Origin: Pseudorhodobacter turbinis
GTDB lineage: Bacteria; Pseudomonadota; Alphaproteobacteria; Rhodobacterales; Rhodobacteraceae
Length of the DNA: 64,000 nucleotides
Assembly (NCBI RefSeq): GCF_005234135.1
Contig: NZ_CP039964.1
Coordinates: forward strand, 1,302,001-1,366,000
Reading direction: 5' to 3'
Shown here: positions 9,400 to 27,517 of the stretch, in pieces
Layout: each line of letters begins with the position of its first letter
Numbering within the stretch: the stretch's first letter is position 1
Translations under genes and position numbers: made by a program
Notes under the pieces: model-generated
Told to the model about the DNA's origin: nothing
Seen by the model: the letters and a program-made list of their open reading frames with translations, nothing else
The model's database searches: none

Positions 9400-9831
9400 C
9401 GTGCGGCTGAGACTACAATTTATGACGTGCGGCGCTCTGGGGTGCTGAGCGGGTGCGATTGTGTTGATGATGATCAACTGGCCACCGCAACACGGGCATG
9501 GCAGCGCGAGGACACGGGGCGGTCCATTGGTATCGCTGGTGCTGTCGTCATCACCGCGACCTTGGTCTGATATGTTTGCGCCAAGCAGCTGCCGGATCCT
9601 GGCGATATTGGCCGCGCGGTTACCGTTTCCGAAGAACCCGTAGTGGCGGTGCGGTGCTGGCCTTTCGGGAGCACGTGGATCAGGAAGCGGCGGATGAACT
9701 CATTTGTGGCCAGCGTCATGGTGGTGTGGCGGCCTGCGCCTTTAAGACGGTAATCTTTGACGCGGAAGGTGACGCTGCGCGCATCAAAACGGATCAGGCG
9801 GCTGTTGGATATTGCCCCCCTCTCATGGTTT
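9400..9831 (-). pseudogene. IS91-family transposase remnant
   Basis: Pieces of a Y2/IS91-type transposase can be read on the minus strand in two frames. First comes SRLIRFDARSVTFRVKDY and then TLATNEFIRRFLIHVLPKG. After a frameshift follow GNRAANIARIRQLLG and the terminal zinc-type PCPCCGGQLIIINTI. Order and spacing match the C-terminal third of these proteins. The N-terminal part is gone, and the IS256 element begins exactly where the frame is cut. No function is expected. Confidence 0.8.
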
Positions 9832-9864
9832 GAGAGCTATGCCCGAAAGTTGGTGACAGCGTGA

Positions 9865-11070
9865 TTAGGCGGCCTTTTTAAGTTGCTTGATACCGTCCTT
9901 GAATTCAATCCCCTGGATGATCTCAGGCATACGGTTTGCGCCGTCGAGTTTGCGCCATTTGGTCTGGGCTGACAGCATCAGCTTGAACGCCATGGCAAGG
10001 CCCGTTTTGCGGCTGAGGCATCCTTTGGTTTTGCCGGTGCGATGCCGAACCGTGGCGAAGGTGCTTTCGATTGGGTTGGTAGTTCTGATGTGTTTCCAAT
10101 GCTCAGCAGGAAAATCATAGAACGCCAGTAGCACGTCGCGGTCTTTGGTCAATTTGGCGACGGCCTTGTCGTATTTCACACCATATGTCGCGACGAAGTA
10201 GTCGAATGCAGCCTCAGCGTCGACACGGCTTTCAGCCTGCCAGCCTCTCGGGCCATTGCTGCGCAACGCCCTGTCGGCCAGTGGATATCGTGCAGATGGC
10301 CCTTTGCTTTGGCCTGAACCGACGTGGGCATCGCATTCAGTGCATTGCCCCGTTTTGTGGAACCAACATCGCTGCTCTTTCGTGGAACCAAAGACCTCGC
10401 GCAGGGCATTCCAGAAGCCCAAGGCACCACTCGTCTGTCACCGGCAGTGGTTTGCCTGCAAACCACGAGAGGCGCCCCGATCAGCACCATAACGCATTGT
10501 TTTTTCCTCAGCCATTCGGGGGCGGAAGTAGACACCATCGGCCCAGATGTAGACGAAACGACGTGCGCTCAGATCGCGTCGTTGCCAACGGTCATACTCA
10601 TCCCACCAATCAGATTTGAGCCTTGAGATCGTCGTCGAAGACAGCCCCGCCGCGTTTGGGCCAAGCAGAGCGGCGAGCGCTTCTTGGAAGTCGCCCGTGG
10701 AAATACCCTTGAGGTAAAGCCAGGGCAGTAGGTCCTCGATGGATTTGGTTTTGCGCAAATAGGGCGGCAGGATTGTTGACGCGAACCGGACATTCTCTTC
10801 GCCATCGCCTCGGTCCCGCACGCGCGGCACTCTGACCGGCACTGCGCCGACCCCAGTCACAATCTCGCGTTCAGGCAGGTGACCGTGGCGCACGAGCCGA
10901 GCACGACCATCATCCGTCTTGTCGGAGGCATAGGCCTCCAGCAGAACTGCAAGTTCGGCTTCAACGGCTTGCTCAATCAGACGCTGCGCGCCCGATCGGA
11001 GCAGCTCCGTCAGTGGATCATGCGAAAATCCCTGTGGATCGGTCAGCTGGGTAACGGTAGTTGTCGTCAT
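9865..11070 (-). pseudogene. IS256-family (mutator type) transposase, internally deleted
   Basis: The N-terminal piece (11070-10438) starts MTTTTVTQLTDP and contains the motif VYIWADGVYF with the first catalytic Asp. The C-terminal piece (10422-9865) contains LGFWNALREVFG, HWKHIRTTNPIESTFATVR with the last catalytic Glu, and a normal end. Between them the segment with the second catalytic Asp is lost and is replaced by a palindromic repeat at 10436-10473, leaving a stop and a frame change. A further shift occurs near the CWFHKTG stretch. The gene cannot give an active transposase. Confidence 0.85.
10436..10473 (-). repeat. Palindromic repeat, copy A
   Basis: Read on the minus strand it has TCTC, then GTGGTTTG, a four-base loop, then CAAACCAC, followed by TGCCGG. 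The 8-bp stem is perfect, and its second base pair (T-A) differs from that of copies B and D in a compensatory way. The second half of the repeat, after TGCCGG, has diverged. It lies at the deletion point within the IS256 transposase gene. Confidence 0.75.
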
Positions 11071-26128: not shown

Positions 26129-26170
26129 CCGTTGCCCGGCAACGGTTTGTTTTCAAACCGTGAGAGCGGG
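26129..26170 (-). repeat. Palindromic repeat, copy B
   Basis: Read on the minus strand: CTCTCACGGTTTG, loop AAAA, CAAACCGT, then TGCCGGGCAACGG. Stem 1 is ACGGTTTG/CAAACCGT. Stem 2 is CCGTTGCC-G-GGCAACGG, and the two share the CCGT segment. It is inserted in frame in the first IS5 transposase. Confidence 0.85.
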
Positions 26171-26449
26171 CGGGTTTTGAGCGGCATTATATTCATCAAT
26201 CGCAATGGTTTGCGTTGGTGCGACGCTCCGAAAGAGTATGGTCCTGCCAAGACGCTCTACAACCGTTGGAAGCGGTGGGGCGACATGGGAATTTTTGCCC
26301 GAATGATGGAAGGTCTCGCCTCCGAGGCCACCGTTCCAAAGACGGTGATGATTGATGCGACCTATCTCAAAGCGCACCGCACGGCTTCAAGCCTTGGGGT
26401 AAAAAGGGGGGCGCGGTCGTCTGATTGGTCGCACCAAGGGGGGCATGAA

Positions 26450-26488
26450 CCGTTGCCCGGCAGAGGATTGGAACAATCGGCGAGAGGG
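26450..26488 (-). repeat. Palindromic repeat, copy C
   Basis: Read on the minus strand: CCCTCTCGCCGATTG, short loop, CAATC, then CTCTGCCGGGCAACGG. The first stem is shorter (GATTG/CAATC) and the loop has lost a base. The segment after it (TGCCGGGCAACGG) is identical to copy B. It lies between codons for Met-Asn and Thr-Lys-Leu-His of the transposase. Confidence 0.8.
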
Positions 26489-26869
26489 ACCAAATTACAC
26501 GCAGTCACTGATGAAAACGGCCGCCCGATCCGTTTCTTCATGACCGCGGGCGAGATCAGTGACTATTCCGGCGCAATGGCTTCTGGCCGACCGGGGCTAT
26601 GATGCGGACTGGTTCCGGGAAGCTTTCGAAAACAAGGGGATAAAGCCGTGCATCCCAGGTCGTAAGTCTCGAACAAAGCCCCTCAAATACGACAAGCGGC
26701 GATACAAGCGTCGCAACAGAATTGAGATTATGTTCGGCCGCCTGAAGGATTGGCGTCGTGTGGCAACGCGCTATGACAGATGCCCGAAAGTCTTCCTCTC
26801 AGCCGTCGCCTTGACAGCAACGGTTCTGTTCTGGCTATGGAGTTTAACGAGCCTGGAGCCTAGCGACCA

Positions 26870-27517
26870 GCGCGGCATCGTATGGTCCGGCCAAAACCCT
26901 CTACAACCGTTGGAAACGCTGGAATGAAAAGGGCGTCTTCGCCCGGATCATGGCGGGCCTGGCCGCTGAAGGCGCCGAACACAAGACCATCATGATTGAC
27001 GCGACATATTTGAAAGCGCACCGCACGGCCTCGAGCCTACGGGCAAAAAGGGGGGCGTGCTCGCCAAATCGGGCGCGCGAAGGGCGGCATGAATACGAAG
27101 TTACATGCCGTCACTGATGCGAAGGGCCGCCCGATCCGGATCTTCATGTCGGCTAGACCCTCTCTCGCGGTTTGCATGCAAACCGCTGCCGGGCAGCGGG
27201 TCAGCGATTACACCGGTGCAGCGGCGCTGCTGAGTAGCCTGCCGAAGGCGGATTGGCTCTTGGGGGATCGTGGATACGATGCCGACTGGCTGCGGGAAGC
27301 CTTGAAAGACAAAGGGATAAAAGTTTGCATCCCCAGCCGAAAGTTCCGAAAGAAAGCCGTGAAATATGACAGGCGGCGGTACAAAAGGCGCAACCGGATC
27401 GAGATCATGCTTGGCCGCCTCAAGGACTGGCGACGCGCCGCAACACGATACGACCGATATCCCGATGCCTTCCTCTCCGCAATAGCTCTCGCAGCAACGA
27501 TCCTCTTCTGGCTTTGA
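26870..27517 (+). pseudogene. Second IS5-family (IS427-like) transposase, 5'-truncated
   Basis: Homology begins abruptly at YGPAKTLYNRWKRW (about 26885), without the N-terminal 60 residues. It continues IMIDATYLKAHRTASSLRA, shifts frame at an A5G6 run near 27042, and then reads MNTKLHAVTDAKGRPIRIFM. Palindromic repeat copy D follows in frame at 27158. The C-terminus with LLGDRGYDADWLREAL and RIEIMLGRLKDWRRAATRYD is complete. It is close to, but distinct from, the preceding copy. Confidence 0.85.
27158..27199 (+). repeat. Palindromic repeat, copy D
   Basis: CTCTCGCGGTTTG, loop CATG, CAAACCGC, then TGCCGGGCAGCGG. Both stems are perfect: GCGGTTTG/CAAACCGC and CCGCTGCC-G-GGCAGCGG, sharing the CCGC segment, so they exclude each other. 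It adds about 12-13 residues (RPSLAVCMQTA and flanks) in frame to the second IS5 transposase. Confidence 0.88.

Follow-up and report, generated by a model that had tools for sequence, protein, structure and literature searches.

Most known palindromic repeats lie in intergenic DNA; those of Rickettsia reside in ordinary genes. The GTAG REPs with their RAYT are short palindromes of high copy number for which a single-strand mobility has been proposed. The RPEs are described as palindromes inside coding sequences, present in many copies and some of them in frame (PMC10969869, PMC3733652), and the CGTC-tagged REPs of Alphaproteobacteria as repeats with a stem of 8–9 bp, a loop of 4–5, variable stems and no known dedicated transposase, for which tag variants such as CCTC are allowed (PMC3733652). 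The mitochondrial bypassing inserts of Magnusiomyces (PMC5009743) and the IESs of Paramecium (PMC3464196) are short, frame-breaking blocks in coding sequence that occur in many copies.

The window analysed here is a stretch of 64,000 nucleotides of Pseudorhodobacter turbinis (NZ_CP039964.1, positions 1,302,001 to 1,366,000, forward strand). Four copies of a palindromic repeat had been reported within its transposase genes by an earlier note made from the sequence alone; all four were present on the strands reported, with slightly shifted boundaries, and a fifth, degenerate copy was added. The copies and the genes that hold them are as follows, in window positions:

9865..11070, minus strand: broken transposase region, presumably IS256-like, host of element A, with ORFs 9865–10422 and 10438–11070
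10243..10285, plus strand: fifth element, degenerate, about 41 nt, the model match taking in two flank bases as well; 22.7 bits, E 4.7e-4
10436..10473, minus strand: element A, 38 nt, variant 3′ end TGACA, stem GTGGTTTG/CAAACCAC; 47.7 bits
26039..26927, plus strand: IS5-type transposase in two reading frames, host of elements B and C
26130..26168, minus strand: element B, 39 nt, keeping the frame of the IS5-type transposase gene; 54 bits
26451..26488, minus strand: element C, 38 nt, frame-shifting, stem partly decayed; 30.9 bits
26870..27517, plus strand: truncated second IS5-type transposase, host of element D, 5′ limit approximate
27160..27198, plus strand: element D, 39 nt, keeping the frame of the second IS5 transposase remnant; 61.1 bits

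The host of element A is taken to be IS256-like from a motif and from homologous copies in the P. turbinis genome. A near-identical element occupies the same site in other copies within that genome (L001, L002 and L004), and the degenerate element, which lies in the same IS region as A, recurs at L205, L220 and L230. For the host of B and C, homologous ORFs of the same genome (L003 and L005) match PF13340 and PF01609, and for the host of D the homologous L005:1610–2122 matches PF01609. The homologous empty site of element C is found in the second IS5 of the window itself. Allowing up to 3 mismatches, CAAACCRYTGCCGGGCA has five matches in the window, one of which is copy C read on its opposite strand; 1.04 were expected, and none of 100 shuffles reached five. 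Elements B and D, at 39 nt each, do add 13 residues in frame as had been proposed, and A and C, at 38 nt, shift it. An exact CTCTCATGGTTTG was also seen at 9820–9832 on the plus strand with the rest of the element absent, which may be chance or a remnant.

That palindromes of one dispersed family are inserted in IS genes is hardly in doubt. The pattern CTCTC-TTTG-CAAA-TGCCGG has 13 matches (12 distinct) in the whole P. turbinis genome against none for its reversed control, and is present in 35 of 394 genomes of the host family, the control being zero in each. A covariance search of the genome and its relatives had been suggested at the outset, and with a model built from 56 copies it returned many scattered matches: at least 112 in P. 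turbinis with E up to 1 (150 of 4279 candidates scored), at least 95 of them with E < 1e-3, at no fewer than 93 places (two being opposite strands). The model matches 58 of 149 family genomes at E ≤ 1e-4, very unevenly (at E ≤ 0.001, 56 matches in G007, 38 in G067, 35 in G064, 33 in G013 and six in a Pseudorhodobacter congener). In a class-wide sample 7 of 289 genomes match at E ≤ 1e-6, four of these lying outside the host family. Among plasmids, one query matches 11 records and another 92, from Rhodobacterales and a single Hoeflea; pDSHI04 of Dinoroseobacter shibae DFL 12 has four such places. One 41-nt query had no match in phages. The fetched loci (1.33 Mb) hold 431 elements against 23 in the reversed control; at least 120 of these stretches (L043–L162) come from a genome contig scan and several are chance matches. 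Twelve places with poor stems were removed before counting, and the flank and score requirements dropped more. The prediction of a dispersed family with conserved structure in the transposase genes of roseobacters and their relatives is thus borne out, and its four copies are far exceeded. Four loci had no match in Rfam at gathering thresholds, and a search of open-licence papers found neither a description of such a palindrome family nor a described family matching hairpin inserts of about 40 nt in marine Rhodobacter-type bacteria. It should also be noted that one 28.2-bit element occurs at nine places of the P. turbinis genome (C1:7841, 214296, 1817625, 1818566; C2:746197, 755098, 763165, 774576, 808989), apparently in one multiplied IS.

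The elements share a constant frame of CCCTCTC, a hairpin whose sequence varies with its pairing kept, and TGCCGGGCARYG, with a usual length of 37–41 nt (peak at 39, followed by 41, 37, 40 and 38). Stems such as ATGGTTTG, GGGCCATTGC, ACGCATG and GCCGATTG each lie opposite their own complement between these two ends. A simple finder detected a perfect stem of 6–10 bp in 193 of 285 copies, the others being interrupted or weakly paired, and the 285 copies hold 105 distinct perfect-stem sequences. Two covarying hairpins had been claimed for the window copies, and compensatory change in stem 1 is strong: in an alignment of 53 distinct rows, where the invariant anchors came from the search pattern and only the variable columns count as evidence, columns 9:28 and 10:27 are paired in all 53 rows with four and three pair types, respectively, the column pair 8:29 being unpaired in 30 rows. 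The second hairpin is weaker and partly kept only. Its pair 27:41 is unpaired in 18 of the 53 rows and its covariation score is 0.132 against 0.173 for one slid control, for which reasons a generally conserved stem 2 was rejected.

A rarer 3′ end, TAAYA or TGACA instead of CARYG, goes with G rather than C directly left of the insert; G was found there in 11 of 13 copies ending in A, and the left target base is tied to the last base of the element (z 16.7 and 8.8). This tie resembles guided single-strand systems, with no obvious pairing rule. A variant at L198 1564–1604, L196 1162–1202 and L229 1535–1575 has the 3′ part TGCCGGGCA replaced and reads CCCTCTC-stem-GAGAGGGCA overall, a near-perfect long palindrome. 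Repeats from Salipiger-type genomes (L059, L060, L088, L137 and L160), which look intergenic, have a CTCTC-hairpin-TGCCGG core that runs on into another hairpin, CAACACATCGC...GCGATGTGTGAGAGG.

After exact removal of the element, gap-free protein homology to another locus runs across the junction at 179 of 234 sites, in a protein-level comparison that tolerates a one-base shift. Empty homologous sites, proposed earlier as support for mobility, were found at the nucleotide level for 136 of the 234 sites, most of them joining gap-free, the best within the P. turbinis genome being 92.4% identical. It had been allowed that the segments might be normal parts of the genes, and diverged ISs do carry nearly identical elements at common sites (29 pairs, see below). 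However, the empty sites already refute this and the same element is common to unrelated IS families, which leaves this explanation with practically no chance of being right. Target-site duplication, a feature of MITEs, was not visible by eye at the junctions of the 136 aligned empty sites, and no pair of near-identical IS copies was seen to differ by a new insertion. Over 185 sites the target logo gives a weak motif (C 0.65 before the junction; G 0.80, A 0.52, T 0.51 and G 0.46 after it). Over the 179 sites, net length modulo 3 is 0 at 74, 1 at 50 and 2 at 55, by which most inserts break the frame; codon-phased insertion was rejected and in-frame coding does not hold as a rule. Relative to the gene the inserts point both ways (102 to 77), even within a single gene.

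Where the host gene could be named, it was nearly always a transposase, and these came from many unrelated IS families. Pfam matches for 104 ORFs at or beside elements include rve (29), HTH_21 (19), Y2_Tnp (6), IS66 (5), HTH_Tnp_1 (4), IstB (3), DDE_Tnp_1 (3), Mutator (2), IS110 (2) and one Response_reg, with 25 of the 33 families listed and the counts given per family rather than as a union over ORFs. Single Pfam scans of 30 ORFs of the P. turbinis genome gave 17 transposase-type matches (one weak) and 13 ORFs with no match, and a re-scan of 20 ORFs, a chosen subset of the 104, gave 11 transposase-type matches (two weak), seven ORFs with no match and two with other families. The two non-transposase matches, Response_reg (L107) and a weak BPD_transp_1 (L135), belong to neighbouring ORFs that end before the element, and no canonical element was seen inside a named ordinary gene in the Pfam scans of element-associated ORFs. 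With 35 transposase queries, some taken from the same loci so that a site may match its own source, a match comes within 60 nt of 157 of the 213 sites with the canonical 3′ end and spans 123 of them, as compared with 31 and 21 of the 52 sites with other 3′ ends. This small query set left 56 of the 213 canonical sites without assignment. Many of these are presumably IS3, IS6, IS21, IS256 or IS481-like, as read from their motifs, and some, such as L037, L244, L310, L311 and L373, may lie outside ISs. Transposase genes clearly predominate among the hosts, with no claim to exclusivity, and the main oddity is this concentration in the IS genes of many unrelated families. Annotation is affected as well: among the 11 plasmid records of one query, no gene is annotated at the insert in eight and an IS transposase in three, in a gene table that omits pseudogenes. 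Within the P. turbinis genome, six model matches crowd into the roughly 1.1 kb of L205 5013–6081, an IS256-like region, and at L173/L267 (C1:1814218–1815312) a 365-codon DDE_Tnp_1 ORF stays open with a 39-nt element; L125 carries a similar element at the same site, in flanks 85% identical.

One possible source of this concentration is targeting, in which a defence system or hyperparasite would recognise transposase genes, or IS DNA in a special state, and would insert a disabling hairpin. The near-restriction of nameable hosts to transposases of unrelated families is consistent with this, as is the finding that one IS site can be hit by different stem types (L005 and L251, L026 and L124, L125 and L074). 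Furthermore, of 41 junctions that lie on the same strand, at a codon boundary and ahead of a D or E codon, about 14 precede what we take to be a catalytic residue, in a count by eye without statistics; however, the C/GA preference alone favours D and E codons. The target motif is weak, candidate machinery was not found, some in-frame copies leave the ORF open, and ISs bearing inserts multiplied nonetheless. Such targeting is considered unlikely.

The history of the inserts can be followed in same-site pairs of related ISs. In 29 of 128 such pairs the elements are at least 92% identical in flanks that are 66–85% identical, and 78 pairs whose flank identity is at most 86% have elements that differ in length or are less than 88% identical, some clearly being of another stem type. 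Element length is equal in 72 of the 128 pairs against 0.25 by chance. As same-site elements are more alike and of equal length beyond chance, many insertions appear to be inherited within IS lineages, and the presence of both near-identical and differing elements points to inherited insertions together with independent hits at one site. Mean flank identity within 10 nt on each side is 0.87 for near-identical elements against 0.69–0.85 further out, and 0.79 and 0.84 for differing elements against about 0.75. These values show no clear tract, and co-conversion around shared inserts was rejected.

ISs bearing inserts have multiplied. One IS of the P. turbinis genome is present in five copies, three of which carry the same three inserts, two of the three being found in the remaining two. 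G013 has six copies of a 1385-bp IS3. All of them carry the same four inserts, which are 38 or 40 nt long, and three of the six show a 3-bp target duplication. The orfB of this IS3 is open over 308 codons without the inserts, against 213 for the longest ORF there with them, and without them shares 92% identity with an insert-free homologue from another genome (L330). A full-length copy lacking the inserts was not found in G013, either with a 236-bp probe or with the end pattern at up to 3 mismatches; the end pattern found the IS3 copies and two truncated remnants only.

These copies could suggest that inserts are removed or bypassed at low efficiency on expression, by ribosome or at the RNA or DNA level, and would be bearable only in lowly expressed transposase genes. 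The rest of the gene is indeed open about equally often with frame-breaking (12 of 52 and 13 of 63) and in-frame (31 of 109) inserts. However, the gene is otherwise open within 240 nt after insert removal at 56 of 224 sites, about three quarters retaining a stop or frame break, and both orientations occur even inside one gene. The differences among five aligned copies of the six in G013 comprise 10 non-synonymous and two synonymous, for which reason the copies do not look kept for function, no purifying selection being visible. A lost or unsampled intact copy acting in trans fits G013 as well as skipping does, and the latter seems decidedly improbable. That some prokaryotic system places hairpins specifically in IS genes, whether as a transposon-disabling defence or hyperparasite or as leaky skipped inserts that would aid IS persistence at very low transposase expression, is regarded as possible but doubtful.

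The repeat had also been linked to REP elements moved by a RAYT (Y1) transposase, with a search for Y1 proposed as a check. The short palindrome, the lack of a visible target duplication and the tie between flank and element end are compatible with this, as are the five Salipiger repeats, which have the core in common and another 3′ end. The check did not favour the link. PF01797 is absent from the P. turbinis genome and from six of eight further genomes, that is from seven of nine, including the copy-rich G000, G013, G067 and G075, and no element lies at either locus with a Y1 match (L365 and L366), so that the RAYT arrangement of a Y1 gene flanked by its repeat was not seen. A GTAG no more than 12 nt from an end was seen in 4 of 285 copies, and the elements are located in genes. 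RAYT/Y1 as a present requirement is largely refuted by the seven genomes missing PF01797, and this origin is very unlikely. No mobiliser was found, the search covering PF01797 (Y1/RAYT) in the nine genomes.

The preferred reading, at moderate confidence, is that the family is a non-autonomous palindromic mobile element with RPE-like anatomy, which survives and spreads mainly on ISs and would be moved by a putative mobiliser. The elements would be miniature palindromes, usually of 37–41 nt, of Rhodobacterales and a few other Alphaproteobacteria, that insert cleanly and in either orientation at a weak site between C and GATG. Their ends, CCCTCTC and TGCCGGGCARYG, seem to serve for recognition, the enclosed hairpin being kept as structure rather than sequence, and a putative recombinase or transposase acting in trans may move them; the tie between target base and last base hints at a matching of end and target. 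Inserts in needed genes would be lost and those in ISs tolerated, which could explain why ISs predominate, and IS transposition would then copy the tolerated inserts and carry them between species. Most bearers of inserts would become defective, with some 39-nt copies persisting as 13 in-frame residues. The patchy distribution over genomes counts for a mobile element. Against it, neutral survival alone leaves the scarcity of canonical intergenic copies unexplained, the target preference is weak, no recent insertion was caught and 56 of 213 canonical sites are unassigned to a transposase. A large family concentrated in the transposase genes of unrelated ISs, cleanly inserted and with hairpins that covary, would be either a transposon parasite or a transposon-silencing device, a question that can already be tested in closed genomes with multicopy insert-bearing ISs.

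Among described systems, the GTAG REPs share the short palindrome and high copy number, but their tag is found near an end in few copies here (4 of 285), the Y1 gene is absent in most carriers and the present elements are not extragenic. The CGTC REPs are alike in stem and loop sizes, in variable stems and in having no known dedicated transposase. They differ in the tag, no more than 10 of the 285 present copies having CGTC 12 nt or less from an end, in their CCA tail where the present elements have a 3′ TGCCGGGCARYG, and in that the latter are not mostly intergenic. The variants TGTC and CCTC and the CCA tail are absent beside the stem in the consensus, the frequency count covering CGTC only. 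As CCCTCTC contains CCTC, a distant tie to the CGTC REPs is left open. The Magnusiomyces inserts and Paramecium IESs are likewise short frame-breaking blocks in coding sequence with many copies, but these are skipped or excised and reside in many kinds of genes, whereas the present inserts are known from DNA sequence and lie mostly in transposase genes. The RPE likeness drawn in the earlier note stands for the intragenic palindrome, with many copies, some in frame, and with protein homology across the junction at 179 of 234 sites; it does not stand for a frame kept as a rule. For the RPEs, the literature gives in-frame inserts of unrelated genes, those of RPE-1 type being about 150 bp, whereas the present elements have a length of about 40 nt, break the frame in most cases (net length a multiple of 3 at 74 of 179 sites) and mostly occupy transposase genes. 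Two defining RPE features, the kept frame and the residence in ordinary unrelated genes, are thus missing from an element that otherwise works like an RPE.
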